A stretch of 64,000 nt of DNA from Oribacterium sp. oral taxon 078 str. F0262 (lineage in GTDB: Bacteria; Bacillota; Clostridia; Lachnospirales; Lachnospiraceae): the NCBI RefSeq assembly GCF_000160135.1, contig NZ_GG729934.1:438499-502498 (forward strand), given 5' to 3'. Shown one piece after another: positions 47,322 through 64,000 of this stretch; within the stretch, counting starts at the first letter, position 1, and every line of letters begins with the position of its first letter. The notes under the pieces are model-generated. The model searched no databases and was not told the DNA's origin. It saw only the letters and a list, made by a program, of their open reading frames with translations. A program made the position numbers and the translations under genes.

Positions 47322-47381
47322 CCTTCTGAAAAAACGGGAAGCTCTCCCAGCGCTCAAAAAACGAGGAGAGACCGATCTTTT

Positions 47382-48479: not shown

Positions 48480-48510
48480 AGATAAACTCCTTGATACCCA
48501 TGTGAAAGCC

Positions 48511-48528
48511 CCGACTGACAACAGTCGG
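48511..48528 (-). other. Hairpin in the ychF leader
   Basis: CCGACTG and CAGTCGG pair perfectly around a 4-nt loop about 15 nt before the ychF ribosome site. There is no T-run, so it is not a terminator. It may affect message stability or translation. Confidence 0.4.
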
Positions 48529-48559
48529 AGCAAGAGCGCCCTCTGCCTTTTCCGTACCT

Positions 48560-48588
48560 ATTCTAAACGTCCTCTTGCGGGAAAGCAA
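48560..48588 (-). promoter_or_regulatory. ychF promoter
   Basis: Minus-strand TTGCTT (48588-48583) and TAGAAT (48565-48560) are 17 bp apart, placing the start about 75 bp upstream of ychF. Confidence 0.6.
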
Positions 48589-48636
48589 TAAGCAGCTTCT
48601 ATAAGACATTGTCACCACAGCGGGCGAAGACAATAA

Positions 48637-48676
48637 AAAGGAGCTTTCACTCTTCTCGAAAAGGCCTTCCTCCTTT
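48637..48676 (-). terminator. Terminator at the end of the nucleoside operon
   Basis: Arms AAAGGAG and CTCCTTT enclose an imperfect inner stem, and the minus strand continues TTATTG. It lies between the small gene at 48711 and the ychF promoter. Confidence 0.5.
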
Positions 48677-48710
48677 GGGAAAGGATCGGATTCGGCGGAT
48701 CGGGTGAGCT

Positions 48711-48887
48711 TCAGGCCCTCCTGATCTCTTTCCTATGCTCCACCATCATCCAATATCTCGTTTTCCTCCCATATTCCGGGATATTCTCCTCGATATAATC
48801 CCTTTTAAAATACAAAAAGCGAAGCCCGATGATGCATCTTCTAAGCCCCAGGACCTTCGACAGCCGGTTCACATCCCCTTCCTTCAC
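48711..48887 (-). CDS. Small protein or gene remnant of unknown function
   Basis: About 58 residues if translation starts at GTG (48887, AGGAAG upstream); an ATG at 48929 is also in frame. It overlaps the end of the ribokinase gene. The sequence is basic and aromatic: RLSKVLGLRRCIIGLRFLYF then YGRKTRYWMMVEHRKEIRRA. Codon use resembles the neighbours. It could be a genuine small protein or the C-terminal relic of a longer gene. I do not recognise the family. Confidence 0.35.
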   Translation of the reverse strand: MKEGDVNRLSKVLGLRRCIIGLRFLYFKRDYIEENIPEYGRKTRYWMMVEHRKEIRRA

Positions 48888-48903
48888 ATCTTCCTGTGCG
48901 AGA

Positions 48904-49803
48904 TCAGGGAGAGGGGAAAGCCGCCTCAAGCTCCTCTATCTTCGGTATCGAAGGCTCCGCCCCCGCCGAGGCCACGGCCAGTGACGCCGCCTTCGATGCA
49001 AGATCCATGCTTTCTTTCGCTGAATACCCCTTCCATATTCCCGACACAAAGTATCCCGTGAAGCTGTCTCCCGCCGCGGTGGTATCCATAACCTTAGCCG
49101 GATAGATATCCTGCTGATAGTCCATACCCTCCTCCGCATATAGAGATCCCCTTTTTCCCAGGGTAAGAACGATCTTCGAGCCGGGAAATCTCTTCAGCAT
49201 CTCATGGATCTGCTCCTCCTCCCTCTTTTCATCTCCTCCCAGAAGCTGCGCGATTTCAATTTCATTCAGAATAAAATAATTCACATAGCATAGGGGGCAG
49301 GAGCGCAGAGCTTCATTCATCGGAGAAGGATTCAGGATGATTCTCATTCCTCTTTCATGCGCCTTTTCCATGAGGTAAACCATATTGCTGATTTCATTTT
49401 GGAGCAAAAGGAAGTCCCCTTCCGAAAAATCCGAGAGAACCTCATCGATGTATTCTCTGGAAATCCTTTGATTCGCTCCGCCGTGCAGAATGATGCAGTT
49501 ATTGCCGCTCTGATCTCTCTGAATGACCGCATTCCCGGTTCGGCTCTCCTTTGAGCTCCTGATATAGCGGGTATTCACTCCGGCCTTTTTCATGAGCTCG
49601 ATCAGAAAATCATCTCCCTGTCCGATCATCCCCGCGTGGAAAACCGGGATCCCGGATCTCGCCAGTGCAATGGATTGATTCAGTCCCTTCCCTCCGGGGA
49701 AAATCTGCAGCTCATCCGCCAATATGGTTTCTCCGGGTTGAACAAAATGCTCTACAGAATACACATAATCCAGATTGATCGAACCAAAATTCAATATTCT
49801 CAT
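48904..49803 (-). CDS. rbsK: Ribokinase-type PfkB sugar kinase
   Basis: 299-residue PfkB-family kinase, probably ribose to ribose-5-phosphate. The N-terminal motif NFGSINLDYVY, the substrate glycines FPGGKGLNQSIALARSG, the mid-region NPSPMNEAL and ILNEIEIAQL, and the catalytic anion hole DTTAAGDSFTGYF (AAGD, Asp as base) are all present. It lies in the nucleoside-uptake operon downstream of a nucleoside hydrolase, which fits phosphorylation of released ribose. A second PfkB domain is fused to a LacI regulator at 61196. AAGGA precedes the ATG. Confidence 0.9.
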   Translation of the reverse strand: MRILNFGSINLDYVYSVEHFVQPGETILADELQIFPGGKGLNQSIALARSGIPVFHAGMIGQGDDFLIELMKKAGVNTRYIRSSKESRTGNAVIQRDQSGNNCIILHGGANQRISREYIDEVLSDFSEGDFLLLQNEISNMVYLMEKAHERGMRIILNPSPMNEALRSCPLCYVNYFILNEIEIAQLLGGDEKREEEQIHEMLKRFPGSKIVLTLGKRGSLYAEEGMDYQQDIYPAKVMDTTAAGDSFTGYFVSGIWKGYSAKESMDLASKAASLAVASAGAEPSIPKIEELEAAFPSP

Positions 49804-49839
49804 CTTCTGTCCTTCGAAATTTCATATTCGGCGTTTCCG

Positions 49840-50586
49840 CTATTTTATCAGCCACGCCGCAAGATTCGCAAACAGCCTCTCATAGCCCTCCCATTCACAA
49901 AACTCCGGCGGAGCCCAGTGCGGCGCACAGTCTGTGGTCAATACCGCGCTTCTCCCCTTTCCATAGCTTCCGACCGCAAGAAAAGGATCCCCGCAGACCG
50001 AAGCCAATACCTCTGTCCCGGGCTTTTCCATTGTTTTATTATATCCCAAAATCCGAGGCCATTCTCCCCTGATCCCGTCCAGAATCTCATGCTCCGGCAT
50101 AAGCGTCTCCGGGCGCACCCCTTCGCAGTGCTCCTCCCGATCATCTGTTTTCAGAAGCTCCACCGGGAGGACCTCCTGCACTGCCGTACTCCCCCACTTT
50201 CCCCTGGCGTCAATGCCGGAAAAGGTGAGATATCCGCCCACCATCAGAAGTGCTCCCCCATCAAGGACATAATCTCTGAGAAGATCGCAGCGATTGGGCC
50301 GAAGCTCACTCCTGGAAAAGGTCGCCGTCGGAAGCAAAAGCGTATTGGCTCCGATATCGGAGAGAACAATCAGATCGAAATTTCTTAATTTCTCCAGGCT
50401 GTACGGGAATTCCTCCATGGCCAAATGATTTGGCATAAAGACAAATTCATATCCCGCTTTCTCGAAGGCCGCCTTGATATATCGCTCTCCTGTCTCATAA
50501 ACCGAGCTGTAGAAAGCATCAAAGCCCTTTACATGTGTCGTATAGCTCATCCATGACTCTCCCGCCAGCAGTATTCTCTTTGCCAT
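49840..50586 (-). CDS. Glutamine-amidotransferase-fold protein (COG5426-like), no obvious nucleophile
   Basis: 248 residues, soluble. The pattern ILLAGESWMSYTTHVKGFD at the start, DLIVLSDIGANTLLLP in the middle, GGALLMVGGYLTFSG and a C-terminal GRSAVLTTDCAPHW match the uncharacterised class I glutamine-amidotransferase-like group. The usual GxCxG nucleophile elbow is not seen. It probably is not a glutaminase; a ligand-binding or hydrolytic role is possible. It sits between the M20 hydrolase and ribokinase genes with AAAGGAG upstream, so it is presumably part of the nucleoside pathway. Confidence 0.75.
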   Translation of the reverse strand: MAKRILLAGESWMSYTTHVKGFDAFYSSVYETGERYIKAAFEKAGYEFVFMPNHLAMEEFPYSLEKLRNFDLIVLSDIGANTLLLPTATFSRSELRPNRCDLLRDYVLDGGALLMVGGYLTFSGIDARGKWGSTAVQEVLPVELLKTDDREEHCEGVRPETLMPEHEILDGIRGEWPRILGYNKTMEKPGTEVLASVCGDPFLAVGSYGKGRSAVLTTDCAPHWAPPEFCEWEGYERLFANLAAWLIK

Positions 50587-50602
50587 AAACTCTCCTTTCT
50601 TT

Positions 50603-51877
50603 TCAGGCAGCGCAGAAATCCAGAATCAATTCCGCATAGATCAGGATCGCTTCCAGATAGGAATCGATTTCCACCCACTCATCCGTACTGTGACACTGCG
50701 CAAGATTCCCGGGCCCAAACTGTATCGTCTGGCAGCCTCCTATATTTCTCCAAAGCCTGGAATCGCAGCCCGCCGGTGAGCCTGTGATCTGCACCGGTTT
50801 TTTTCGGACCAGACTGTAGGCTCTTTGAAAGCTTTCCACCAGGCTCTGTCCCTCTCCCATTTCAAATCCGCCGCCGGCCTGATAGACCGTCAGCTTCGGA
50901 GGATGCTTTTCCAGCCAAAGGTCCGAGCGGGAGACTCTCGAGATCAAATCCTCGATCTCCCCGACGAGCCCCTGATAATTCATCTGTCCCGGGATATAGT
51001 GCACGCAGAGCTCAAAGCAGCATTCGGAAGGCACGGTGGATCCCGCGCTTCCTCCCCGAATCACCCCGACATTCAGACTCGGAGAGGGCAGCAGCGGATG
51101 CCGGTATTTCAGGAGCCACTCATGCTCCATCTCGTGCATGGCCTCGATGATTTTTATCGCCTTTTCAATGGCACTGACTCCGGCTTTCTTCTCCCCGGAA
51201 TGGCAGGACTTTCCCTCCACCTCTACCCGGAAGAACACAAAGCCCATATGAGCGAGAATCAGTTCATCTCCTGTTCCCTCACAGACCACCACTCCATCCG
51301 CTCTCAGTCCGGACATAAGAGCCTGAACGGAGCCGTTTCCTCCCCCTTCCTCATCGCATACGGACGCGATAATAAGCTCTCCCGGGATTTCTCTTTCCGC
51401 GTCCTTCAGCAGCTGGACCGCCATCACTGAGGCCATAAGACCCGCTTTCATATCTGCGGTTCCGCGCCCGTACATCCTTCCGCCTTCGATTCTCGCCTCA
51501 AACGGCGGACTTTTCCACTCCTTTTCATTATCCGCGGGCATCACGTCCATATGTCCGTTCAGGATGAGACTTCTCCCCCTGCCCTCTGTCCCAAATCCCG
51601 CGTACAGATTATAGCGCTTCTCCAGCTTATGTCCGAGATTTCCCTCATGCCAGAGCTCATGGCAGCGTTTGATATCCGCTTCCTTCAGGGGATCCAGTCT
51701 CAGCCGTGCCCCCATCTCCCGGAGAAGCCGGGCCAGATAATCCTGCCCCTCCTTCTCCAGTCCTCCGTCAATCCCATGTCCCAGCACATGGGTATCGATC
51801 TCCACCAGCTCCGCGAGTCTCTTGATATAATACTCCTTGTTTTTTTCCAGAATCTCTCTTAAATCAAGCATTCCCAT
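50603..51877 (-). CDS. M20-family metallohydrolase (ArgE/DapE/ACY1 type)
   Basis: 424-residue co-catalytic zinc hydrolase. Ligands appear in LILNGHMDVMPA (His), GRGTADMKAGLM (bridging Asp), SVCDEEGGGNG (catalytic Glu then ligand Glu), VVCEGTGDEL, and QCHSTDEWVEI (last His). The family removes acyl groups or cleaves amides and dipeptides; the substrate is unknown. Its place inside a nucleoside operon suggests an N-acyl, carbamoyl or ring-opened nucleobase derivative, but that is a guess. The start at 51877 (MGMLDLRE) has GGGAGG upstream. Confidence 0.85.
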   Translation of the reverse strand: MGMLDLREILEKNKEYYIKRLAELVEIDTHVLGHGIDGGLEKEGQDYLARLLREMGARLRLDPLKEADIKRCHELWHEGNLGHKLEKRYNLYAGFGTEGRGRSLILNGHMDVMPADNEKEWKSPPFEARIEGGRMYGRGTADMKAGLMASVMAVQLLKDAEREIPGELIIASVCDEEGGGNGSVQALMSGLRADGVVVCEGTGDELILAHMGFVFFRVEVEGKSCHSGEKKAGVSAIEKAIKIIEAMHEMEHEWLLKYRHPLLPSPSLNVGVIRGGSAGSTVPSECCFELCVHYIPGQMNYQGLVGEIEDLISRVSRSDLWLEKHPPKLTVYQAGGGFEMGEGQSLVESFQRAYSLVRKKPVQITGSPAGCDSRLWRNIGGCQTIQFGPGNLAQCHSTDEWVEIDSYLEAILIYAELILDFCAA

Positions 51878-51953
51878 CCTTCCTCCCGCAAAACGTATTC
51901 CATGCGGGAATGCGGGCAGTTTCACCCTTAGTACAGGGGATCCGCATCCCGCC

Positions 51954-52886
51954 TTATCCGTATCTTCTCAGCCCGGACTCAATGCAGTCCCAGAAGCGCT
52001 CCACCTGAATGTCCACTGCCACATCCGCTGTGGCCTCCCTGTGCAGATAGCCAAAGTAATCGCAATTGGTTCGCCCATAGGACTGCTCGCTGCGGATATC
52101 AATCTCGACATTCATCGCCTTGGTTTTCAGAATATCCGGATCAATTAGATAGGCGACAGGCACCGGATCGTGGAGCGGTCCCCCCTCCCAGCCGAAAACC
52201 TCCTTCTGCGTCCTGCAAAAGTGTCCCATCAAGTCCACAAAGAGCTTCGATGCCTTATTGCCGATCCTTCCCATGCGCTCCACAATCTCCGGGAAGCACA
52301 AGGCCTTCCTCGTCACATCCAGTCCCGCCATTGTGATCGGCCGCCCGGAGTTGAAACAGACGTATGCTGCTTCCGCATCTGCCGCAATATTGAACTCGGC
52401 CGCCGGAGTGATATTGCCGTTTCCATAGGAGCCTCCCATCAGGACGATCCTCTCGATTTTATCGAGAATTCCGGGATTCATCCGCATCGCCATGGCAAGG
52501 TTTGTCATGGGACCGGTCGTCACCATGGTTACGGCTTCCTCAGAGGATAAAAGCGAACGGATGATGAACGTAACCGCATGCTCCTCTTCCACGGTCCTTT
52601 TGAGCTCCGGAAACACAGGTCCGTCCAGGCCGCTGCTTCCATGAATGTCAGCCGCGTGAATCCTTTTCCTGACCATCGGCTGGCCGCATCCCGCGTAAAC
52701 CGGGATATCCAGCTCCAGATACTGAAGGACATTGAGGGCATTTGGGGAAGTTTTTTCTATCGTCTGATTCCCCGAAACCACCGTGATCCCCAAAATCTCC
52801 AGCTCCGGCGCTCTTCCGGCCAGCATAATGGCTACCGCATCATCATGTCCCGGATCACAGTCCAGAATGATTTTTCTCCTCTTCAT
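51954..52886 (-). CDS. Inosine-uridine-preferring nucleoside hydrolase
   Basis: 310-residue N-ribohydrolase splitting ribonucleosides into base and ribose. The calcium-binding motif ILDCDPGHDDAVAIMLA is at the N-terminus. Further family blocks are VTTGPMTNLAMAM, VLMGGSYGNGNITPAAEFNI and LHDPVPVAYL (last Asp ligand). Base specificity cannot be read safely. It follows the transporter genes and precedes M20, amidotransferase-like and ribokinase genes. That order makes it the enzymatic core of the operon. Confidence 0.93.
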   Translation of the reverse strand: MKRRKIILDCDPGHDDAVAIMLAGRAPELEILGITVVSGNQTIEKTSPNALNVLQYLELDIPVYAGCGQPMVRKRIHAADIHGSSGLDGPVFPELKRTVEEEHAVTFIIRSLLSSEEAVTMVTTGPMTNLAMAMRMNPGILDKIERIVLMGGSYGNGNITPAAEFNIAADAEAAYVCFNSGRPITMAGLDVTRKALCFPEIVERMGRIGNKASKLFVDLMGHFCRTQKEVFGWEGGPLHDPVPVAYLIDPDILKTKAMNVEIDIRSEQSYGRTNCDYFGYLHREATADVAVDIQVERFWDCIESGLRRYG

Positions 52887-53016
52887 AAATCTCTCCGATC
52901 TTTTCGCTTGTTTTCTGTACTGCGTAAAATATTCTCCGGCTGATCTCTGTCCTTAAAGCCGGAGTCTCTGCCGAAAATTCATACATCCCTCCTCCGCCTG
53001 AGCTCTAATGACGATC

Positions 53017-53976
53017 CTATGCCTTCCCGGCATCTGTTCTCATGGCAGGGAGCAGGGCGGATTCTCTCCTCCTTATCGTTTTTCTCTTTACGATAAGGGA
53101 AAGCGACAAAATGAGAATCGTGACCAGATACGGCATCATCAGCACAAACTGCGCGGGAAAGCCATAGGCCTGCAGTCTGGCCCCGACGGAATCCGAAAAG
53201 CCGAATAAGAGACAGCCTACGGAGGTCAGAATCGGATTCGCCCCGCCGAAATACATCGCGGCGACTCCCATGAATCCTCGATTATTCGTCATATTTTCGA
53301 CAAACTGCGAGCTGTAGCCAAGGGAAAGATGTGCTCCCGCCAGTCCTCCGATGAGGCCGGAAATCAGCATCGCCTGGTAGCGGACCGTATCGACGGGAAT
53401 TCCGGCGGTCCGGGCGGCATCCGGAAATTTCCCGACGGCCCGGAGGCGCAGTCCCCAAACCGTCTTATAAAACAGAAATTCCAGAAAAAGCACGAGAAAA
53501 AGCACCAGCCATTCCGTGAGGCAGCAGTCATTCCATAAGTCCCCCAGGATCGGCACATGCTCGAGAAAAGCAAAATGCAGCCTTGGAATGACGGAAAGAC
53601 CCGGATCGGAAAAGCTTCCGCTCGTCTTGAAAATTGCCTGCAGCAGAAATTTACTGATTGCAATGGCAAAAAGATTCACCCCCATCCCGATTGCGCAGAT
53701 TTCCGAGTGATACTTGATGTGTCCTACAGCCATGATCAGCGAGATCAGAGCCCCGCTCAGCATTGCCGCGAATACCCCAAGAATCCATGTTCCCGTGAAA
53801 AAGCTGACTGTCACTGCCGTAAACGCGCCGACGAGCATGATTCCCTCTGTGCCGATATTCAGGATATTGGCCTGCTGCGTGATTGCCGCACATAAGGCCG
53901 CGTAGATGATCGGCGCGGAGGCCCGGAATGTAGCATAGATCAGCGACAGATTAAATATTTTCCCTGAATTTCCCAT
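53017..53976 (-). CDS. Nucleoside ABC transporter permease (NupQ-like)
   Basis: 319 residues with about eight to nine hydrophobic segments. The block TQQANILNIGTEGIMLVGAF is the signature of the BmpC/YufQ branch of the BPD-transport-2 permeases. GVAAMYFGGANPILTSVG and the preceding NNRGFMGVA loop occur near the C-terminal part. It forms the membrane channel with the upstream permease; their stop and start codons overlap by one base. Confidence 0.88.
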   Translation of the reverse strand: MGNSGKIFNLSLIYATFRASAPIIYAALCAAITQQANILNIGTEGIMLVGAFTAVTVSFFTGTWILGVFAAMLSGALISLIMAVGHIKYHSEICAIGMGVNLFAIAISKFLLQAIFKTSGSFSDPGLSVIPRLHFAFLEHVPILGDLWNDCCLTEWLVLFLVLFLEFLFYKTVWGLRLRAVGKFPDAARTAGIPVDTVRYQAMLISGLIGGLAGAHLSLGYSSQFVENMTNNRGFMGVAAMYFGGANPILTSVGCLLFGFSDSVGARLQAYGFPAQFVLMMPYLVTILILSLSLIVKRKTIRRRESALLPAMRTDAGKA

Positions 53977-55034
53977 TAGCTTCCTCCCTCTTCCTCCGCC
54001 CCGGAAGGAAGACTGAGCGCCTCCCTCTTTTTTCCTTTGCGCCGTTCCAGGACAAAATCCATTGTGGCGACAATGATGAATACCGCAGATACCGTATCCA
54101 CTATGGACTTCGGAACATTCGTGGCCTGCTGCATCGCCATGGCTCCGGCTTTTAAAACGGAGAGAAAAAAGGCGATAAATGGCGTGAAGAAAACATTGGA
54201 TTTCACAATTAAGGCGGCGAGCATGCCGTTGATTCCCAGGTCCTTTGCGAAATTATCCAGATAATAGCCATGTACCCCCAGGACCTCGATGCAGCCCGCG
54301 ATCCCGCCGAGCATCCCCGAGAGAAGCATGCAGGATATGAATACGCGTTTGGAAGAGGTCCCTGTGTAATCCGCATTCATTGGATTTGTCCCCACCATTT
54401 TGATTTTATACCCCCATTTGCTTTTACAGAGCATAAGGATAATCAGAATGACCAGAAAAATTGCGATAAAGATTCCCGCATTGGCTGAAGACGGCTTTAT
54501 GATTTTGGGCAGGGTCACCAGTACGGGCGCTGACTGAGGAATCGCGGATCCCGCGCTCATCGGTCCACTCACGAGATACGAAGCGATATAGACTGCCACC
54601 GTATTCATCAAAATCGTCACACAGACCTCCGATACATTGTAGTACACCTTTAATACCGCCGGAATCAGCGCCCATAGTCCCGATACGATCACAGCCCCCA
54701 AAAAGCATGCGGCATAGAGAAGAGACACCGGGAGAAAGCCCCAGTTAATTCCGATATACGCCGCGGTAATTCCCCCGAGAATTACCTCTCCCTCCACTCC
54801 GACATTGAACGCCCCCGCCTTCGCCGCAAGCGCAAAGGCCGTAGAGGTCAGAAGAAGCGGCGTAAAGCCCGCTATCACGGTCCCAAGCCCCAGCCTCGTC
54901 CCGAAGGCGCCTCTCAGCAAAGCGGCATAGGCCAGTATCGGATTTTCTCCAATAAGAAGGATGAATAATGCGCCGATTCCCAGGGCCATCGCGAGAATGA
55001 GCAAAATCCTGAATACAGCCCTATATGCGTTCAT
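53976..55034 (-). CDS. Nucleoside ABC transporter permease (NupP-like)
   Basis: 352 residues, about nine hydrophobic segments. The block LAAKAGAFNVGVEGEVILGG corresponds to the conserved region of the BPD-transport-2 family. GLWALIPAVLKVYYNVSEV and TNPMNADYTGTSSKRV follow. Its first 14 bp overlap the end of the ATPase gene. It partners the NupQ-like permease. Confidence 0.88.
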   Translation of the reverse strand: MNAYRAVFRILLILAMALGIGALFILLIGENPILAYAALLRGAFGTRLGLGTVIAGFTPLLLTSTAFALAAKAGAFNVGVEGEVILGGITAAYIGINWGFLPVSLLYAACFLGAVIVSGLWALIPAVLKVYYNVSEVCVTILMNTVAVYIASYLVSGPMSAGSAIPQSAPVLVTLPKIIKPSSANAGIFIAIFLVILIILMLCKSKWGYKIKMVGTNPMNADYTGTSSKRVFISCMLLSGMLGGIAGCIEVLGVHGYYLDNFAKDLGINGMLAALIVKSNVFFTPFIAFFLSVLKAGAMAMQQATNVPKSIVDTVSAVFIIVATMDFVLERRKGKKREALSLPSGAEEEGGS

Positions 55035-56562
55035 ATTTTCTTTCCTCTTTCCCGCCTCCCATCATAAGGAGCCCCAGATTATTTTCGTTCGCATCCGATA
55101 CCGGCATTTCCCCGGTGATTCTGCCCTCATGGATCACGATAATACGGTCGGAAAGAGAGAGAATTTCCTCCAGCTCCGCCGAGACCAGCAGGATCCCGCT
55201 CCCCTCTCTTCTGGCTTTCTCCAAAGCGGCCCTTATGGATTCTATCGCCCCGATATCCACTCCTCTTGTGGGCTGTGCCGCTATCAAAACCTTCTTTTTC
55301 AGAGACAGCTCTCTCGCGACCACCAGCTTCTGCGCATTCCCGCCGGAAAGCGCTGCGCTTGGCCCCTTGCAGTTGTTCGGGCGGATGTCAAAGCTTCTGA
55401 TCAGCTCTTCACCATGGCGTTCCATCGCCCTTTGGTTCAGATAAGGCCCCTTCGAATACGGCGCCTGATCGATTTCTACGGAAAGCAGATTTTCCAGGAC
55501 GTTCATGCTGCGGTTTAATCCTCTGACATTTCTGTCTTCCGGAATGTGAGAAAGCCCCAGCTTTCTGATCCTCTTCGGCGTCTGATTCGCGATATCAATG
55601 CCGTCTAAAAGGATCCTTCCCCTCTCAACCCTCCTTAAGCCCGTAATTGCCTCAATCAGCTCCGACTGTCCGTTTCCGTCGATCCCCGCGAGGCCGAGGA
55701 TCTCGCCCTCCCGGAGGGAAAATGACATTCCGCGAATCTTCGAGCTCTCCTTTGCGCTGGGAACCCAGACATCGCAAAGCTCCAGCACCACCTCTCCAGG
55801 CACGCCTCTTTTCCCTCCTCCGCTCAAAAAGACCTCTCTCCCGATCATATGCTTCGTGAGCTCCAGCGGGGAGGTCTCCTCCTTATTCATGCTTCCGCGG
55901 AATACCCCCTGCCGCATGACAGAAATTCTGTCGGAAATATCCATGACCTCATTCAGCTTATGGGAGATAAAGACCAGAGACTTCCCCTCTTTTTTGAGAT
56001 TTCTCATAATCTCGAAAAGCTTCTGCGTCTCCTGTGGCGTAAGGACCGCCGTGGGCTCATCCAATATGATAATCTCCGCTCCCCTCATCAGAGTCTTTAT
56101 GATCTCAACGCGCTGTGCCTCCCCTACGGAAATCTGTCCCACCTTTTTGTCCAGCGGAAGCTCCAGATGGTAGAGCTCAATGTACTTCCGGATCTCCTTC
56201 TCTGCCTTTGCGAAGTCGATCTTCAGACCTTTTTTAGGCTCAAAGCCAAGAATAATGTTTTCCAAAACGCTAAGCTCATTGACCAGCATGAATTCCTGGT
56301 GCACCATGCCGATTCCATGCTCGATCGCGATGCCGGGATTTAATCTCAGCATCCTTTCGCCCTTGATGAAGATTTCCCCTTTGTCGATCGGATACATCCC
56401 ATAGAGGAGCTTCATCATGGTAGATTTTCCGGCGCCATTTTCTCCGATTAAAGAATGGATCTCTCCCTTTTTCAGATTGAAGCTACCATCTTTGACCGCG
56501 CAGACCTCAGCGAATGATTTGGACACCGAAAGCATCTCAACGACATATTCTTCCTTCACCAT
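55021..56562 (-). CDS. Nucleoside ABC transporter ATPase with two ABC domains (NupO-like)
   Basis: 513 residues. The first ABC domain has Walker A GENGAGKSTMMKLLYG, signature ISVGEAQRVEIIK and Walker B IIILDEPTAVLTP. The second has the relaxed Walker A GIDGNGQSELIEA and signature ALSGGNAQKLVVARE. This tandem layout, with a degenerate second P-loop, is typical of ribose/nucleoside (Mgl/Nup) ATPases. It follows the BMP lipoprotein gene by 83 bp. Confidence 0.93.
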   Translation of the reverse strand: MVKEEYVVEMLSVSKSFAEVCAVKDGSFNLKKGEIHSLIGENGAGKSTMMKLLYGMYPIDKGEIFIKGERMLRLNPGIAIEHGIGMVHQEFMLVNELSVLENIILGFEPKKGLKIDFAKAEKEIRKYIELYHLELPLDKKVGQISVGEAQRVEIIKTLMRGAEIIILDEPTAVLTPQETQKLFEIMRNLKKEGKSLVFISHKLNEVMDISDRISVMRQGVFRGSMNKEETSPLELTKHMIGREVFLSGGGKRGVPGEVVLELCDVWVPSAKESSKIRGMSFSLREGEILGLAGIDGNGQSELIEAITGLRRVERGRILLDGIDIANQTPKRIRKLGLSHIPEDRNVRGLNRSMNVLENLLSVEIDQAPYSKGPYLNQRAMERHGEELIRSFDIRPNNCKGPSAALSGGNAQKLVVARELSLKKKVLIAAQPTRGVDIGAIESIRAALEKARREGSGILLVSAELEEILSLSDRIIVIHEGRITGEMPVSDANENNLGLLMMGGGKEERKYERI

Positions 56563-56594
56563 CGCCTCCCAAAACCCGATTTTGGATCGAAGGA

Positions 56595-56623
56595 ATGTGA
56601 AGTCCTCTTTCCGGGCTTCACAT
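56595..56623 (-). other. Intercistronic hairpin between BMP and ATPase genes
   Basis: ATGTGAAG and CTTCACAT form an 8-bp stem around 13 nt. No T-run follows. Such stems after binding-protein genes often protect the upstream message and lower downstream expression. Confidence 0.45.
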
Positions 56624-56645
56624 CCTCTCTTCTTTACTGCAGGCT

Positions 56646-57752
56646 TTAGGCTTCCGGCCCGAAGCCCTCGTAATTTTTAACCTCTATTTCTCCAGAGGCA
56701 ATCTTCTTCTCCAGCTCTTCACACTTGTCCACGATATCCTGGGGGAATTTCTCCCCAAGCGCTTTCTTCATCACGGAAAAATCCGTCAGACTGACTCCTC
56801 CCTCTGCAAGCGTCAGATACTGTGTCGTCCCTCCGCGGAAGCTTCCGTCTGCGGCCGCCTGAATGATAAGATAGCAGGCATTGTCCACCCTCTTTACCAT
56901 AGAGGTCAGTACAGAGCCCGGCTGATCCGCGTCCTGATTCAGATCCACGCCGATGGCATATTCCCCGGCCTCCTTCGCCGCTTCCAGGACTCCGGTTCCC
57001 GTTCCGGACGCGACATTCATGACAATGTCAGCCCCCTGCTCATATTGGGCCAGCGTCAGCTCCTTTCCCTTCAGAGGGTCCGACCAAGACCCCGCAAAAG
57101 ACTGAAGGATGGAGATATCGGGGGCAATATACTTTGCGCCCTGTTCATAGCCGACATAAAAATCATGCAGGACAGGGATATCCATCCCTCCTACCCAGCC
57201 TATGATATGCTCCGGGTTTACTCCCTTGATCTCTGTCTTCTGGGTGAACATCGCCGCAGCCGCCCCCGCCAGAAAGGATCCCTGATTCTGTGCGAAGCTG
57301 ATAGATTCCACATTGGGGAGATCCACCTTTGTATCGATGATCGCGAATTTGATCTTCGGATAATCAGGAGCATGCTTTGCAATATAATCCGCCATATTGG
57401 AGGAGCTTCCGATCACCAGATCATAGCCCCCTTCACAAGCGGAAAGCAGATTCGCCTCCCATTCCTGCGCGCTAGTCCCCTCCAGAGACTTTAATTCAAT
57501 GCCAAAATCCGAAACGGCCTTCTGCGCTCCGGCATTGCAGGAATCATTGTAGGATTTATCTCCCAGATTCCCCGTATAAACAATGCAGACTCTGAGCTTT
57601 TCCTTTTTTTCGTCCCCTTCCGGCTCCGCACTTTTTGCAGAGCTTCCCTTTTCCTCCGCCTTTTGAGATGCCGCCTCATTGGCCGAAGGGCCGCAGGCTC
57701 CGAGCATCAGGATGACGGCCATGGCAAGCAAGATACCGATCGCTCTCTTCAT
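56646..57752 (-). CDS. BMP-family nucleoside-binding lipoprotein
   Basis: 368 residues. The signal MKRAIGILLAMAVILMLGAC has its lipobox Cys at residue 20, followed by a Lys/Glu/Ser linker. The BMP domain starts VCIVYTGNLGDKSYNDSCNA and includes DLVIGSSSNMADYIA, IGWVGGMDIPVLHDF and AIGVDLNQDADQPGSVLTSM, the purine-nucleoside-binding family pattern. It delivers nucleosides to the NupOPQ-like importer. AAGGAGG precedes the ATG. First gene of the leftward operon. Confidence 0.93.
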   Translation of the reverse strand: MKRAIGILLAMAVILMLGACGPSANEAASQKAEEKGSSAKSAEPEGDEKKEKLRVCIVYTGNLGDKSYNDSCNAGAQKAVSDFGIELKSLEGTSAQEWEANLLSACEGGYDLVIGSSSNMADYIAKHAPDYPKIKFAIIDTKVDLPNVESISFAQNQGSFLAGAAAAMFTQKTEIKGVNPEHIIGWVGGMDIPVLHDFYVGYEQGAKYIAPDISILQSFAGSWSDPLKGKELTLAQYEQGADIVMNVASGTGTGVLEAAKEAGEYAIGVDLNQDADQPGSVLTSMVKRVDNACYLIIQAAADGSFRGGTTQYLTLAEGGVSLTDFSVMKKALGEKFPQDIVDKCEELEKKIASGEIEVKNYEGFGPEA

Positions 57753-57782
57753 TTTTCCTCCTTTTCTTTTTCATTTCACACG

Positions 57783-57800
57783 TAGGAAAATAGTTTCCTA
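57783..57800. promoter_or_regulatory. Palindromic operator in the leader of the nucleoside operon
   Basis: TAGGAAA-ATAG-TTTCCTA has perfect 7-bp arms. It lies about 13-30 bp past the predicted transcription start, a usual place for a repressor roadblock. The LacI-ribokinase fusion at 61196 is the nearest candidate binder. Confidence 0.6.
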
Positions 57801-57819
57801 TATCATTTTCTTAATCTCT

Positions 57820-57848
57820 AAGATAGACGATAAGTCCTCCTCTGTCAA
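57820..57848 (-). promoter_or_regulatory. Promoter of the BMP/nucleoside operon
   Basis: Minus-strand TTGACA (57848-57843) and TATCTT (57825-57820) are 17 bp apart. The -35 is perfect. Confidence 0.75.
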
Positions 57849-58123
57849 GAGCGAATTTTGTGAATAATACCCTGTAAGCGCGATATATCTCCCTATTCTT
57901 ATGAGCATAATTATGAATATATGTTTTATTATAAGCTCACAACTATCTTATAATTCATTCTTGCAAGTTTATGCTTGTTTGTTTTAGTCGCTAATGCTAT
58001 GTTAATTATATTAGTCTCCGTCAGACGCCGGAAGGGCCGCCGTAATTCTACGCGCAGCATCCCGGCGGGGATATTTCAGTAAAATGATTCAGATCTTGGG
58101 AACTATTCTTCGGGAGGCATAGC

Positions 58124-58834
58124 ATGAAAGATGTAAGCGAAGTCCAATCGGTCTCCAATCTGCCGATCATATGGGTTTTATGTGCCGCCACGGTTCTGAT
58201 TTCCGTACTTCAGACCACGCTTTATGTCAGGAAATGTCTTTCAATATCGAAAAAATCGCAGCTGGACCCTTCCCTCTCCAGGCAGGCCTTCCGAATCGGC
58301 ATGATTTCGGCCATCGGACCTGCGCTCGGAGTCTTTATCGTCATGGTAGGACTGATGGCTTCCATCGGAGGTCCCATGGCCTGGCTCAGACTTTCCATTA
58401 TCGGCGCTGCCCCGACGGAGCTCTCCGCCGCAAGGATCGGAGCGGAGGCCTATGGCGCGGAGCTCGGTTCCGACAAATATACTCTCACAGCTCTTGCGGT
58501 TTCCTGGTTCACCATGGCCCTCAACGGAGCGGGCTGGCTTCTTTTCACGGGCATTGCGACCCCTTCCCTTGAAATCCTGCGAAACAAGGTCTCCGGAGGG
58601 GACGCAAAGTGGCTTGTCATTTTGAGCGGGGCCTGTTCTCTGGGGATCTTCGGCTATCTGAATTCCGGCGATATCCTTAAGGGCTGGGGAAACAGAACCG
58701 CGGTTATCGTCGGTGCTCTCGCCATGATTTTCCTCGTAAAAACCGTATGCAAAAAGTTCCCGAAGCTGATGGAGTATTCCCTCGGAATCGCGATGCTCAT
58801 CGGAATCGCCGCCGCGATATTGGTGGAGCCCTGA
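58124..58834 (+). CDS. Multi-spanning membrane protein (DUF5058-like), possible transporter subunit
   Basis: 236 residues, about six hydrophobic segments. The first starts near residue 13. A long conserved-looking block, SAIGPALGVFIVMVGLMASI, is followed by GGPMAWLRLSIIGAAPTELS. The overall pattern resembles the DUF5058 family, assigned here from memory, so with reserve. No known transporter motif is seen. CGGGAGG precedes the ATG. It is followed 88 bp later by a second membrane protein and then an M20D amidohydrolase, suggesting import of that enzyme's substrate. Confidence 0.7.
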   Translation: MKDVSEVQSVSNLPIIWVLCAATVLISVLQTTLYVRKCLSISKKSQLDPSLSRQAFRIGMISAIGPALGVFIVMVGLMASIGGPMAWLRLSIIGAAPTELSAARIGAEAYGAELGSDKYTLTALAVSWFTMALNGAGWLLFTGIATPSLEILRNKVSGGDAKWLVILSGACSLGIFGYLNSGDILKGWGNRTAVIVGALAMIFLVKTVCKKFPKLMEYSLGIAMLIGIAAAILVEP

Positions 58835-58922
58835 GGGATAAGCGGAGTTCCGAAATCCCGCAGTTTCATATGCAGCAGCTGTCATGGAAATTTTCCGCGC
58901 TTTTCGGAGAAAGGAGAAGACT

Positions 58923-59591
58923 GTGAAGGAAGAGGAGCTGATGAAGGAATGGAAAAGCTCTTCCATTCGCATAGGCAGTCCCACAAATATCATGGCTGCC
59001 TTGACTGCCTTTATCCCCGTAATCTGGCTGTGCAGCAGCCATAATTGCTGGCCTCCGCTGCAGACCGTCCTGACCGCATGGGGAATGGTGGCCGCATCCT
59101 TCGGTGCCTTTTATTTCGTGGAGCCGATATCCTACTACGCCGCGCTGGGGATGACCGGAACCTATCTGAGCTTTTTATCGGGAAACATCGGAAATATGCG
59201 TGTCCCCTGTGCCGCCTTGGCCCTGGACACAACGGGTTCCAAGCCGGGGACTCTGCAGGCGGAGCTCGTTTCCACCATGGCTATCTGCGGCTCCATCATC
59301 ACCAATCTGATCGCCACCAGCTCGGCGGTACTGATCGGCTCCGCCGTCTTATCCGTGCTCCCGGCGATCGTCGTAGACGGACTCACAAAATATGCGAGCT
59401 CCGCAATCTTTGGGGCAACCTTCGGAAACTTCGCCATAAAGTATCCAAAGCTTGCCGTCTTTGCTCTGCTGATCCCGGTCCTGCTCAAACGCTTCACATC
59501 CTTCCCTCCTGCCTTTGTCATCGCATTTTCAGTCTTTGGCACTCTCCTGATCGCGAGAATCTTTTATAAAAACAAGTGGATAAGCTCATAA
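58923..59591 (+). CDS. Multi-spanning membrane protein of unknown function
   Basis: 222 residues, about six to seven hydrophobic segments, with a short charged N-terminus. Segments include MVAASFGAFYFVEPISYYAA, LSFLSGNIGNMRVPCAA and SAIFGATFGNFAIKYPKLAV; small residues and Asn within helices are frequent. I do not recognise the family. GTG at 58923 is chosen as start because AAAGGAGA lies 7 nt upstream; an ATG at 58941 is possible. It probably acts with the DUF5058-like neighbour as a two-part membrane complex. Confidence 0.7.
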   Translation: MKEEELMKEWKSSSIRIGSPTNIMAALTAFIPVIWLCSSHNCWPPLQTVLTAWGMVAASFGAFYFVEPISYYAALGMTGTYLSFLSGNIGNMRVPCAALALDTTGSKPGTLQAELVSTMAICGSIITNLIATSSAVLIGSAVLSVLPAIVVDGLTKYASSAIFGATFGNFAIKYPKLAVFALLIPVLLKRFTSFPPAFVIAFSVFGTLLIARIFYKNKWISS

Positions 59592-59617
59592 CGCCATGCC
59601 GATAAGGAGGATTTATC

Positions 59618-60799
59618 ATGTGGGAAAAATGTAAAGAACTGCAGGACAAGCTGCTTCGCATGCGGCGGGATCTCCACCAGATTCCGGAGCTTGGCGGAGA
59701 TCTCCCGAAGACCCGCGCTTATCTGGAAGAGCGGCTTCAGGAGATGGGGATTCCCTTCGAGGAAAACAGCTTTGACAGCGGTCTGATCGCGACGATACAG
59801 GGTTTTAAGGATGGTCCTGTCCTCGCTCTCCGCGCGGATATGGATGCTCTTCCGATCACGGAAGAAAATGAGGTGGATTACATCTCCAGGCATAAGGGCT
59901 GCATGCATGCCTGCGGCCATGATACCCATATGGCGATGCTGCTGGGAGCCGCGGAGCTCCTTTTCAAAAACAGGGATCGGATCCCCGGCAGTATCCGCCT
60001 TTTGTTTCAGACGGATGAGGAGGGCGCTCAAGGGGCCAGAAGGATGGTCGATCATGGCTGCATGGACGGCGTGAGCGCAGTCTTCGGGACCCATATCGGG
60101 ACCATTCTTTCGAAGGAAATCCCCGCCGGGACGGTGATATGTACGCCCGGCTGCTGCATGGCCTCCTTTGACAAGTTTATAGTGCGGATCCATGGCTCCG
60201 GCTGCCACGGTTCAACCCCGGAAAAGGGAGTCGATCCCATCAATATAGGAGCACATCTCATCCTCTCCCTGCAGGAGATCCTTGCGAGAGAAATCCCCGC
60301 GGTAAAGCCTGCGGTCCTGACCGTCGGACATGTGGAGGCCGGGAAGACCTATAATGTCATACCAACGGAATTTCTTCTGGAGGGCACGATCCGGACCCTG
60401 GACAAGGAAACCCGCGATTTCCTCGCAAAAAGGATTCAGGAGATCTCTTCTCAGACCGCGGCGCTCTTCCGCGGAAGCGCAGAAGTGCAGATGATCTGGG
60501 GAGCGCCCCCTGTGGTCAACGATCCCGCCATGGCAATGCTGGTCGCCGACTGCGCGCGGGAAGTCGTCGGAGCGGAGAAGACGATAGACCATGTGGATGC
60601 GCCGAACATGGGGGGAGAGGACTTCGCCTATTATCTGGAGAAGGCTCCCGGAGCCTTTATCTTCCTAAGCTCCTCCAATAAAGAAAAAGGAAGCGATGTC
60701 TCCCATCATAACCCCAGGTTTAACGTCGACGAGGATGTCCTCTGGATCGGATCCGCTCTCTTTGTGAAAATTGTCGAGAAATACTTTCACATAGAATAG
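59618..60799 (+). CDS. M20D amidohydrolase (HipO/AbgB-like)
   Basis: 393-residue zinc/manganese amidohydrolase. Motifs: RRDLHQIPELGG, ALRADMDALPI, CMHACGHDTHMAMLLGAA (Cys and His ligands typical of M20D), LLFQTDEEGAQGARRM (catalytic Glu), and SHHNPRFNVDED (last His). The family cleaves N-acyl or aminoacyl amides; the substrate is unknown. AAGGAGG precedes the ATG. It lies 26 bp after the membrane protein gene and is clearly in the same unit. Confidence 0.9.
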   Translation: MWEKCKELQDKLLRMRRDLHQIPELGGDLPKTRAYLEERLQEMGIPFEENSFDSGLIATIQGFKDGPVLALRADMDALPITEENEVDYISRHKGCMHACGHDTHMAMLLGAAELLFKNRDRIPGSIRLLFQTDEEGAQGARRMVDHGCMDGVSAVFGTHIGTILSKEIPAGTVICTPGCCMASFDKFIVRIHGSGCHGSTPEKGVDPINIGAHLILSLQEILAREIPAVKPAVLTVGHVEAGKTYNVIPTEFLLEGTIRTLDKETRDFLAKRIQEISSQTAALFRGSAEVQMIWGAPPVVNDPAMAMLVADCAREVVGAEKTIDHVDAPNMGGEDFAYYLEKAPGAFIFLSSSNKEKGSDVSHHNPRFNVDEDVLWIGSALFVKIVEKYFHIE

Positions 60800-60828
60800 C
60801 GGCGCAGCAGGCAGAAAGGCAGGCTCCT

Positions 60829-61116
60829 ATGATTCCGCAGATTCCGCAGCTAAGTCTTTTTCTGTCCTATGCCCTCCTTCTTCTGCTTGCGATGTATATT
60901 TTTGTATACATCCCGAACAAAAAGAGGCATTCCGCTCAAAAGCATATGCTCGCTTCTCTCAAGGAAGGGGATGAGGTGATCACCATAGGGGGAATCGTCG
61001 GAATCGTTTCCGAGCGGGACGGCGACTATGTCACGCTTCTCATCGACAAAGAAAAAGAGGTCCATATCAGAGTAGTTCTCTATGCAATACGGCAGATAAA
61101 AGCGGCGAAACCTTAG
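60829..61116 (+). CDS. yajC: YajC, Sec translocase accessory protein
   Basis: 95 residues with one N-terminal membrane helix (YALLLLLAMYIFVYIPNKKR) and a small soluble domain with the hallmark LKEGDEVITIGGIVGIV. YajC associates with SecDF during protein export. It is usually near tgt or secDF; here it ends a transporter-M20 operon, 29 bp after the amidohydrolase gene. GGCAGGC precedes the ATG. Confidence 0.9.
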   Translation: MIPQIPQLSLFLSYALLLLLAMYIFVYIPNKKRHSAQKHMLASLKEGDEVITIGGIVGIVSERDGDYVTLLIDKEKEVHIRVVLYAIRQIKAAKP

Positions 61117-61118
61117 AG

Positions 61119-61156
61119 GAGAGGGGAGCATGGTTTCCCCTCTCTCTTTTCTTTCC
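61119..61156 (+). terminator. Terminator after yajC
   Basis: GAGAGGGGA and TCCCCTCTC form a 9-bp stem with an 8-nt loop, followed by TCTTTTCTTTC. It separates the membrane/M20/yajC unit from the regulator gene. Confidence 0.85.
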
Positions 61157-61195
61157 CATGATATCTGCTGAAGATCGGGGACTTTGGAGGAATTT

Positions 61196-63130
61196 ATGAC
61201 GATAAAGGATATCGCGAAGCTGGCAGGAGTATCTGTATCCACAGTCTCCAAGGTCATGAACCAAAAGGACAGCAGCATCAGCCAGAAAACCAGAGAACGG
61301 GTCCTTCAGGTTGCCCGCTCATGCAACTACTCTCCCTATGCGGCATTTATCTCCCAGCATCTCAAGTATTTCCATGCAAAGCTTCTGATCCGGGAAAATT
61401 CACTGCTCTTTGGCTCGGTCATGAAGGGCCTTCTTTCAGAAGCGCAAAGCAAAGGATACACCGTATCCCTCTCCATGATACCGAAAAGTGATCCCGAAAT
61501 CGAATTGCTCTTTTCGGAATTGGAGAAATCCAGGATCGATCTGATTCTGTGGGAGCAGTCCGCGAAGGCGGATGAAAAAGCCGAGACTTCCTTTCAGAGA
61601 AAGCTCAGCGCCCTGCAGCTCCCCTCCGTTCCCCTTTTTTCTGGTGACGAGCGCTCCTTTCACATGGACCTGTCTCATATCTCCTATGGTCTTACCGAGA
61701 GCTATCATCGGAATCATTTCGAGAAAACAGCCTGCGTCCTGGATCCGGAAAAAAATTATCCCGGCTTCATAGAGGGCTACCGGGAATATTTATTCGATCA
61801 CCGGCTGCCGATTCCTAAGGACCTGATCTATGATAAAAATCGTCCGGAGCTTCTGGATGAGCTGATCGAAAAATCCGTGAGCGCCGTACTCTGCCCGGAC
61901 TTCAGCACTGCCATCCGGATCTATCAAAGAGCAGCCGCGTTGCATTATCAGATCCCCTCCGAGCTCTCGATCTGTACTCTGAACCATGGCTCCGAGCTCC
62001 CCTCCCTCTTCCCCGATATCAATTTTTATGAACTGCCGTCGGAGGAATTCGGGCGATTTATCTTCCGGGGGGCGCTGCAGCAGCTGGAAGACGGGGACAT
62101 GATCCTCCACAGCTTTTCTCCGTCCTTCGTGAAGAACCGTCAAAGCAGAAGGCCTGTCTCCGCGGCGAAGAGAGAGTGTGAAATATGCATCGTAGGAAGC
62201 ATCAATATCGATAATTATCTGAATGTCTCCACACTCCCTGTGTCCGGAAAGACCGTCTCCAGCAGCTCTCAGAATATCTATCCCGGAGGGAAGGGCACCA
62301 ACGAGGCGATTGGGGCCGCAAAGCTTGGGCACCGGGTCTCCCTCATCGGAAACGTGGGAAGAGACAGAGAATCTCATCTGATCTACGATACCCTGAGGAA
62401 ATATCATGTCCAGCTCCGCGGTGTTTCCCGATGTCCCGAAAAGCAGACGGGAAGAGCGCATATCATTGTAGATCCCCGCGGCGAATCTCTGATCTCCATC
62501 CTTTCCGGCGCAAACAGCTCCCTAAGTGCCGCTCTCGTCCGGGAGAAGGAAGAGCTGTTTCGGCGGAGCTCCTTCTCCCTGGTCTGCACGGAGATCCCCA
62601 TGGATGCCGTTCTGGAGGCCTGCCGCCTGAGCCAAAAATACGGCGGAAAAACCATACTAAAGCCCTCCTCCTGCGGAGAGCTCCCGGCAGAGCTCCTTCG
62701 ATATATCGATATCCTGATTCCCAATCTGAATGAATTAAATGAGATCTGTCCCGGCTTTGGCAGCATGCAGGAAAAAGCCCAATATTTTTTGGATAAAAAT
62801 ATTCCCATTGTCATCGTGACTCTCGGAAGCAGGGGCTGTTTTCTAAAAACAAAAGACTGTGAGAAATCCTATCCCGCGATCAATATCCCATCGGTAGACA
62901 GCACCGGGGCCGGGGACGCGTTCATCTCCGCTCTGGCTTCCTACCTGCTGTACGGCTATGACCTGGACCGCTCCATCCGCATCGCGGGCTTCGCGGCGGG
63001 CATCAGCACAAGCAGATCCGGCTGCGTCCCATCGCTTGCGGACAGGAATACCCTGGAGACCTATATTTCACAAAGAGAGCCTTCCCTCCTTTCCCTGGAG
63101 GAAAGCCGCCCGGAAAAGCCGAAGCCATGA
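61196..63130 (+). CDS. LacI-type regulator fused to a ribokinase (PfkB) domain
   Basis: 644 residues in one frame. Residues 1-50 form a LacI helix-turn-helix (TIKDIAKLAGVSVSTVSKVM). Residues about 55-318 form a periplasmic-binding-like effector domain. Residues about 327-630 form a complete PfkB kinase with CIVGSINIDNYL, NIYPGGKGTNEAIGAAKLG, LIPNLNELNEI and the catalytic VDSTGAGDAFISAL (Asp574 as base). The hinge after the DNA-binding part lacks the usual ARxL pattern. The start at 61196 has GGAGG 5 nt upstream; a TTG at 61184 is part of that site. It may be a regulator whose kinase domain senses or consumes ribose or a nucleoside. Probable targets are the flanking nucleoside genes. Confidence 0.92.
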   Translation: MTIKDIAKLAGVSVSTVSKVMNQKDSSISQKTRERVLQVARSCNYSPYAAFISQHLKYFHAKLLIRENSLLFGSVMKGLLSEAQSKGYTVSLSMIPKSDPEIELLFSELEKSRIDLILWEQSAKADEKAETSFQRKLSALQLPSVPLFSGDERSFHMDLSHISYGLTESYHRNHFEKTACVLDPEKNYPGFIEGYREYLFDHRLPIPKDLIYDKNRPELLDELIEKSVSAVLCPDFSTAIRIYQRAAALHYQIPSELSICTLNHGSELPSLFPDINFYELPSEEFGRFIFRGALQQLEDGDMILHSFSPSFVKNRQSRRPVSAAKRECEICIVGSINIDNYLNVSTLPVSGKTVSSSSQNIYPGGKGTNEAIGAAKLGHRVSLIGNVGRDRESHLIYDTLRKYHVQLRGVSRCPEKQTGRAHIIVDPRGESLISILSGANSSLSAALVREKEELFRRSSFSLVCTEIPMDAVLEACRLSQKYGGKTILKPSSCGELPAELLRYIDILIPNLNELNEICPGFGSMQEKAQYFLDKNIPIVIVTLGSRGCFLKTKDCEKSYPAINIPSVDSTGAGDAFISALASYLLYGYDLDRSIRIAGFAAGISTSRSGCVPSLADRNTLETYISQREPSLLSLEESRPEKPKP

Positions 63131-63206
63131 AAGCCCGGCCGATGCGCAAACTGATCTCGAATGCTTTCTCCCGCCTGTGAGAGTCTGCGAGATCCCATGC
63201 ATGAAA

Positions 63207-63231
63207 AAGCCCGCGGGCTTCTCCCGGGCTT
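63207..63231. terminator. Terminator after the LacI-ribokinase gene
   Basis: AAGCCCG and CGGGCTT pair around an 11-nt loop containing its own CGGGCTT copy. The minus-strand reading ends in TTTTTC, so it may work in both directions. Confidence 0.6.
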
Positions 63232-63301
63232 AAAAAACGGAGTCCTCCGCTTCCCAACCTCCCCGCAGAAAACGCGGCGCGTAAGGCAGCGGAGGACTCC
63301 G
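63232..63301 (-). terminator. Long terminator of the transaldolase gene
   Basis: A perfect 14-bp stem, CGGAGTCCTCCGCT with its complement, encloses a 36-nt loop holding an inner CCGC/GCGG stem. It is followed by six T on the minus strand. It ends 18 bp from the transaldolase stop. Confidence 0.9.
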
Positions 63302-63319
63302 CATTCCGAGAGAGCTCCC

Positions 63320-63976
63320 CTATTTTCCAAAGACCGCCTCATAATCCTTCCGGAATTTTTCGATGCCGATCTCCGTGAGCGGGTGCTTCATCATCTGGAC
63401 GAGAACCTTATAGGGAACGGTCGCGATATCGGCGCCCGTCTTCGCACACTCTACGACATGCATCGGATGGCGCACAGAGGCGCAGATCACCTCCGTCCGG
63501 ATCTCCGGGTATCCTTCAAAAATCGCCATGATATCCTCCACCAAAAGGATGCCGTCCGTTGCAATATCGTCGAGCCTTCCGAGGAAGGGAGAGACATAGC
63601 TCGCACCGGCTCTCGCCGCAAGAAGGGCCTGCGCCGCGCTGAAGATCAGTGTCACATTGGTCCGGATTCCCTCGGAGGAAAGCCGCTTCACCGCCTTCAG
63701 TCCCTCCGCGGTCATCGGAATCTTCACGACCATATTCTCATGGAGCTCTGCGATCTCCCGGCCCTCCGAGATCATATCCTCGGCCTTTATGCTGCTCGCT
63801 CTGACCTCACCGGAGATCGGCCCATCGACAATCCCCGCGATCTCCTTCAGGGTCTGTCTGTAATCCCGCCCCTCCTTCGCGATCAATGAGGGATTGGTCG
63901 TCACGCCGGCGATGATCCCCATCTCCCAGCACTCCCGGATCTCGTCCACATTCGCCGTATCAATAAAGAACTTCAT
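63320..63976 (-). CDS. Transaldolase-family protein (TalC/fructose-6-phosphate aldolase-like)
   Basis: 218-residue TIM-barrel enzyme of the short transaldolase group. [25 protein letters not shown], the Schiff-base lysine in [28 protein letters not shown] and [10 protein letters not shown] are all present. It either transfers dihydroxyacetone units in the non-oxidative pentose phosphate pathway or acts as a fructose-6-phosphate aldolase. The two cannot be separated by eye. Next to ribose-handling genes, a pentose-phosphate role is plausible. AAGGAAGG lies upstream of the ATG. Confidence 0.93.
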
Positions 63977-64000
63977 CTTCGATTTCCTTCCTTTAAAAGA

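Follow-up and report, generated by a model that had tools for sequence, protein, structure and literature searches.

A LacI-family repressor fused to a ribokinase-like domain in Lachnospiraceae: a candidate switch of nucleoside/ribose salvage that may sense through its kinase

The gene at positions 61196-63130 of the window (the whole 64,000-nucleotide stretch of Oribacterium sp. oral taxon 078 str. F0262 analysed here) encodes a LacI-type repressor and a ribokinase-like PfkB kinase in one chain. On balance, we lean towards the view, drawn from comparison with its relatives, that this protein locally represses nucleoside/ribose salvage genes and does its sensing with the kinase domain. The search for such chains proposed in the initial annotation of this DNA, with comparison of their neighbourhoods, yielded 50 distinct same-chain LacI-PfkB fusion proteins, which were used for counting. 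Two of them have mis-called starts (L067 and L127), one is a very distant member (L073), one lacks the kinase end (L128; hence n = 49 for loop counts) and one comes without flanks (L042; hence 49 loci for neighbourhood counts); two fusions found later, L170 (GADD) and L171 (GAAD), stand outside all counts. In the titles and abstract openings of openly licensed papers, we found no description of a LacI-kinase fusion or its regulon, and the word "fused" is absent from a paper on LacI-family regulators (PMC4052901).

Results

The fusion gene (+ strand) is a single uninterrupted frame of 644 codons from ATG, with a possible alternative start at a TTG at 61184. A helix-turn-helix (residues 1-47, 61196..61336) is followed by a hinge (residues 48-60, 61337..61375), a periplasmic-binding-protein-like core (about residues 61-322, 61376..62161) and a ribokinase-like PfkB domain (about residues 329-625, 62180..63070) that contains GGK at 364-366, E466 and DSTGAGD at 568-574. 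Pfam finds LacI (PF00356) at residues 2-47 with 68.2 bits against a cutoff of 27, Peripla_BP_3 (PF13377) at 193-316 with a marginal 27.1 bits against 26.5, and PfkB at 330-614 with 165.3 bits. The frame and the complete kinase with its GAGD loop, read here as DSTGAGDAF, are thus as first annotated. By phmmer, residues 2-289 align to RbsR (9ny7), and the kinase half has E. coli ribokinase (1gqt, 9.3e-44) as its closest solved structure by sequence. Ribokinase is also its nearest family by profile, with 249.3 bits to the equivalog model TIGR02152, under the cutoff of 299.65. A structure model of the fusion from seven sequences was poor (mean pLDDT 63); its closest fold was 1rk2_B (7.1e-20), and since all 50 Foldseek matches listed were ribokinase-type kinases, the model is uninformative on the LacI half. 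Just before the gene, between yajC and the fusion, lies a terminator-like stem (61118..61145, + strand), one of 4 found in 60790-63330 as compared with 3.5 from shuffles.

Among three parts compared, conservation is highest in the helix-turn-helix and lowest in the core, with mean pairwise identities over the 50 fusions of 64% for the helix-turn-helix, 45% for the kinase and 28% for the core. The hinge helix of ordinary LacI proteins wedges into a central CpG of the operator. The hinge of the window protein (YSPYAAFISQHL) is without the N..ARxL pattern, and the absence of ARxL, already noticed in the initial annotation, holds family-wide: none of the 50 fusions has the hinge Asn and 4 have the hinge Leu, while of 26 stand-alone LacI proteins from related genomes (18 from fetched loci and 8 from locus contexts) 23 have the Asn and 22 the Leu. 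In the core, the Arg/Lys of RLxGF is kept in 1/50 fusions vs 26/26 stand-alone LacIs and the Asp of ND in 1/50 vs 25/26. We take this Arg and Asp to be effector contacts, presumably equivalent to Arg197/Asp274 in LacI and Arg190/Asp275 in PurR, and the core-pocket argument rests on these LacI and PurR contacts. In the window protein, F191 and F236 occupy the corresponding ligand positions. The sensor described as complete in the initial annotation is therefore complete only as a core recognisable by sequence; its ligand-contact positions are unlike those of LacI regulators.

The sugar pocket of the kinase is near-invariant, and the residues of the ribose and ATP pocket are retained. In what we take to be E. 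coli ribokinase numbering, the Asn14-type residue is kept in 47/50 fusions, the Asp16-type in 50/50, the Asn46-type in 49/50 and the Glu143-type in 50/50, and GGK is kept in all 50. Since the inherited ligand residues of the core are lost and this second pocket is retained, sensing most probably takes place via the second pocket. The catalytic Asp is present in 47/49 fusions and is Asn in the other two. At the third position of the GAGD loop, the anion-hole residue, 10 of 49 fusions have Gly, 31 Ala, 4 Ser, 3 Cys and 1 Ile; the stand-alone PfkB kinases of the fetched loci, 59 distinct ones, all have Gly. These controls derive from 62 scored rows, 61 with Gly and one with Ala; the Ala row is a broken-fusion fragment (L115), and removing the kinase half of a split fusion (G894) and one duplicate gene from the 61 leaves 59. 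Fisher's exact test for 10/49 vs 61/61 gives 9e-21, a value too optimistic given the relatedness of the sequences. In ketohexokinase, the amide of this Gly contacts the phosphate-transfer site, according to PMC2651755; the family-wide loop motif is written G/AXGD in PMC5405513. The fusions span active-looking GAGD copies, altered copies (GAAD, GGAD, GACD and GASD) and copies without the catalytic Asp (GAAN). On a quickly computed tree with long branches, at least six changes between Gly and non-Gly are needed, while the supported branches alone force fewer, three for the non-Gly fusion group; because the tree is unrooted, loss and regain of Gly are indistinguishable on it. From these comparisons, the kinase domain in most relatives is probably catalytically weakened, with a drift towards a sensor that is slow or without catalysis.

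The window protein is among the few with Gly: its GAGD loop, its catalytic Asp and all the sugar-pocket residues looked at are intact, so that a plainly dead kinase is rejected for this copy and the pseudokinase arguments from relatives apply to it only indirectly. Another ribokinase-like gene exists in 45/47 fusion genomes searched. In the two exceptions, G379 and G150, the search at 1e-45 gave no further ribokinase-like gene, and yet the fusions of both are without the Gly; altered copies may therefore still work there, or another kinase does. As both exceptions carry non-Gly copies, the idea that GAGD copies are the sole ribokinase of their genome is not supported; six Gly fusions fall within the 47-genome search (G000, G057, G191, G998, G1095 and G1097), the genomes of L033-L036 lying outside it. 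The two related fusions L122 and L123 carry GAAN, their catalytic Asp being replaced by Asn. Their flanks yielded no gene for a nucleoside hydrolase, a BMP lipoprotein or a ribokinase, and they are candidates for pure sensors with another ligand.

These data bear on two other accounts of the protein. One is a classical trigger enzyme, close to the initial annotation's proposal of a regulator that phosphorylates its own inducer and so resets its signal: the inducer, ribose or a nucleoside, would bind to the LacI core and be removed by the fused kinase, which would be active. For the window copy phosphorylation is possible, given its intact loop and pocket and its 249 bits to the ribokinase model. 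As a general explanation it is disfavoured, for the anion-hole residue is altered in 39/49 fusions, a second ribokinase-like gene is almost always at hand, and the inducer residues, Arg/Lys and Asp, are each absent in 49/50 cores, the part that is conserved at 28% vs 45% for the kinase. We therefore regard the trigger enzyme as unlikely, and the family trend is for the kinase domain to be retained for sensing, not for resetting the signal as an enzyme. The other account is a product or flux sensor, in which an active kinase signals through bound ribose-5-phosphate/ADP or its turnover state. The catalytic Asp of 47/49 fusions would suit it, and Cra-FruK of E. coli (PMC11157272) offers a precedent; against it stand the widespread change at the residue whose amide, in the homologous ketohexokinase, contacts the phosphate being transferred (PMC2651755) and the replacement of the catalytic Asp by Asn in two fusions, and we consider it quite improbable. 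Sensing by the kinase pocket is the reading we carry forward.

The neighbourhood connects the fusion with nucleosides. The window operon, 48904-57752 on the - strand, begins with a BMP-type (PnrA-like) substrate-binding lipoprotein gene (56646..57752; PF02608, 223.9 bits), the first gene of the presumed target operon, which is followed by an ABC ATPase and two permease genes (53017..56562; PF00005, 170.3 bits; PF02653, 100.9 and 126.2 bits) and an inosine-uridine type nucleoside hydrolase (51954..52886; PF01156, 330 bits; NF007417, 403 bits, missing the cutoff of 459) that would release ribose. After genes for an M20 protein and a GATase1-like protein, the operon ends with the stand-alone ribokinase-like gene (48904..49803) already seen in the initial annotation; it has a DTTAAGD loop, and besides its Pfam match it scores 236.9 bits with TIGR02152, under the cutoff of 299.65. 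In the 49 flanked loci, a nucleoside hydrolase occurs 32 times, a stand-alone ribokinase-like gene 29 times and a BMP lipoprotein gene 21 times, with at least one of the three in 38/49 and the ABC ATPase of the window's cluster in 24/49; several of the locus contigs are truncated, and gene clusters that mix kinases with fusions were separated by length. From this gene content, the fusion belongs to nucleoside/ribose salvage. The upstream neighbour is divergent in 28/49 loci, and in L031, L065 and L105 the fusion directly faces the BMP gene. In the window, the interval 58124-61116 separates the operator described below from the fusion; it encodes a DUF5058 protein, a partner protein with no Pfam match, an M20 amidohydrolase and YajC. 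This block looks inserted, since operator and fusion are directly divergent in several relatives. As a side observation, the block 48904-52886 groups the ribokinase, GATase1-like (PF07090), M20 deacylase and nucleoside hydrolase genes, and members of the GATase1-like and M20 clusters are present in 7 loci, the window among them; two of these seven cover one and the same stretch of genome.

Palindromes recur upstream of fusion genes. A matrix from ten such palindromes, with no window sequence among the seeds, gives 57783-57800 (TAGGAAAATAGTTTCCTA), 30 bp from the BMP start codon, as the best site in 45000-64000 (26.4 bits), and the core pattern TAGGAAANNNNTTTCCTA is found exactly once in the 2.68-Mb genome, at this very site. 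It had been singled out before for DNA-binding assays and is likely the target. A promoter-like TTGACA-17-TATCTT (57820..57848, - strand) lies just upstream, a weak sign alone with one match vs 1.2 in shuffles. Among the 38 non-seed loci, 22 have a site scoring 15 bits or more in the 400 bp before the fusion gene, as do 6 of the 353 upstream regions taken as controls. Genes of the ABC ATPase, BMP, permease, nucleoside hydrolase and kinase/fusion clusters were excluded from the controls; the six control regions with a site all lie between a fusion, or fragment of one, and its divergent neighbour. Against dinucleotide shuffles, 27/38 non-seed loci reach p 0.05, many of the test loci being close kin of seed loci and hence not independent. 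The 400 bp upstream of the window fusion itself contain no operator (p 0.37), and 10 more of the 38 loci miss p 0.05.

When each whole locus is considered, the best site reaches at least 15 bits in 37/49 loci, and 36 of these 37 lie at most 450 bp upstream of a fusion (32) or of a kinase (10), BMP (6) or nucleoside-hydrolase (6) gene, some counting twice. The consensus of the 37 aligned sites, oriented with the better +13 neighbour rightward, is TAGGAAAATATTTTCCTAAAnTnTTTTCYTA. The right half-site repeats at +13 bp in 20/37 sites and at any of 39 other offsets in at most 5/37, in an offset test that treated both sides alike; the operator therefore has three half-sites, which in the window are the inverted pair 57783-57800 and TTTTCTTA at 57806-57813, together a candidate extended operator (57783..57813, unstranded). 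The central dinucleotide of the 37 palindromes (18 bp) is TA in 18, TG in 8, CA in 5, another in 6 and CG in none. A central CG is typical, not universal, of LacI-family operators, with 1173/1251 even-palindrome regulators having it according to PMC4052901, and the absence of the hinge helix in the fusions fits an operator without the central CpG.

A large regulon is not supported, as with up to two mismatches the pattern is found at 8 places in the own genome vs 38 for a backwards control. The looser pattern TARGAAANNNNTTTCYTA, searched in 80 genomes, occurs in 14/47 with a detected fusion, at 19 places of which 7 are inside the fusion locus, and in 6/33 without one; the pattern alone is therefore not diagnostic. 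In L112, a strong operator-like site of 19.4 bits at 14541, away from the intergenic region of the fusion itself, precedes a gene that is a possible second target.

Among the first 61 genomes, full-length single-frame homologues were found in five others (25-44% identity), and six named GTDB contigs also carry the fusion, mostly from Lachnoclostridium and other Lachnospiraceae, in line with the occurrence in other Clostridia suggested in the initial annotation. The order sample has it in 17/392 genomes (cutoff 1e-60) and the family sample has matches in 33/397 (1e-58), two of which are partial or split (G894, the kinase half only of a split copy, and G969, residues 1-546). At strict E-values, the class sample gave 5/391 genomes, three with intact fusions including our own and two with adjoining but separate lacI and rbsK genes, and the phylum sample 8/398, with the own fusion as the only intact one at that cutoff; such cutoffs could miss distant fusions, the G054 fusion scoring only 2.8e-39. 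Genomes of the same genus contain other long LacI proteins (L167 1036-3015 and L168 807-2828), in which, judged by eye, a LacI regulator appears to continue into a second binding-protein-like domain of the same chain.

Unfused lacI-rbsK neighbours also exist in other lineages (L052, L050/L075, L172 and L173), so fusion by stop loss would be easy, and side-by-side genes of this kind are the likely source of the fusion. They also lend some weight to a simple tether, in which a repressor and a kinase, both of the ordinary sort, would be joined for co-expression and otherwise uncoupled. The losses of core ligand residues, hinge and catalytic Gly, which co-occur in the fusions and are absent from the stand-alone control sets, make an uncoupled pair very improbable. 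As for two genes joined by an assembly or sequencing error, the objection foreseen in the initial annotation, its probability is practically nil: broken copies occur in two relatives (G894 and G920) and nothing of the kind supports it for the window, and intact single frames in dozens of separate genomes, named GTDB records included, refute it. The copy in G894 is interrupted close to an A-rich stretch, leaving two frames that overlap (L118 8448-9524 and 9407-10483), either a broken gene or a frameshift site, and in G920 (L115 4616-6554) a second, broken copy lies beside an intact one.

Discussion

Based on these comparisons, we propose the following mechanism for the fusion as a kinase-sensing repressor. 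The LacI helix-turn-helix would bind 57783-57813 at the start of the BMP-ABC/nucleoside hydrolase/ribokinase operon, and ribose freed from nucleosides, probably together with ATP, would bind the fused ribokinase-type domain, which may have replaced the LacI core as effector site. Closure of the lid or re-dimerisation of the kinase domain could then free the DNA, while the old LacI core may serve as a spacer and dimer interface. The window copy, with its GAGD, may still convert ribose to ribose-5-phosphate and so end the signal while reading it. The comparative evidence for the DNA target is good, and that for the pathway is good as well, while the sensor role of the kinase domain and the allosteric route are inferred. 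A bolder version, which we offer tentatively, is a branch of the LacI family in which sensing would have moved wholly to the fused kinase and a three-half-site operator would be bound without a hinge; the sensor of the window's clade would be a working ribokinase, and sister clades would have gone repeatedly from an enzyme towards a pure sensor.

Several known systems recall parts of this scheme. In E. coli, the LacI/GalR-family repressor Cra is bound by the ribokinase-family kinase FruK, dimer to dimer and with nanomolar affinity, according to PMC11157272; there too, the repressor is of the LacI family and is in physical contact with a PfkB-type kinase from its own pathway, but the two are separate proteins, the kinase is active and fructose-1-phosphate binds to the Cra core. 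The fusion, in contrast, is one chain, has a core without the usual ligand residues and belongs to the nucleoside/ribose pathway. MocR regulators, in which a GntR helix-turn-helix is joined to an aminotransferase-like sensor (PMC5320631), likewise have an enzyme-like sensory domain; they differ in families and in ligand. BzdR joins a helix-turn-helix to a shikimate-kinase-like domain, an enzyme fold recruited as the effector-binding domain of a regulator, and loss of enzyme activity is judged essential there (PMC3602430). Its helix-turn-helix and kinase are of other families, whereas our fusions retain the sugar pocket and mostly the catalytic Asp. To our knowledge, BzdR has no LacI core between its helix-turn-helix and its kinase-like domain. 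The LacI-family ribose repressor RbsR shares homology in the helix-turn-helix and core (the 9ny7 alignment) and the ribose pathway, but has no kinase and, in that alignment, an ordinary core and hinge. RbsK (TIGR02152) resembles the fusion over the whole kinase domain, in the pocket residues and, for the window copy, in GAGD; the fusion kinase differs in being joined to a repressor, in scoring under the equivalog cutoff and in the altered Gly of 39/49 copies.

If the proposed reading is true, the family would offer a natural series in which a single architecture is seen at stages between enzyme and regulator. Such a series would allow testing of whether a metabolic enzyme can replace a repressor's sensor step by step, and of whether the central-CpG habit of LacI operators stems from the hinge helix. 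The fusion would be the covalent equivalent of Cra-FruK and, for bacteria of the Lachnospiraceae type, a concrete switch of nucleoside salvage. Should the more tentative reading of the window's clade also hold, reading the signal and destroying it would be one chemical act.
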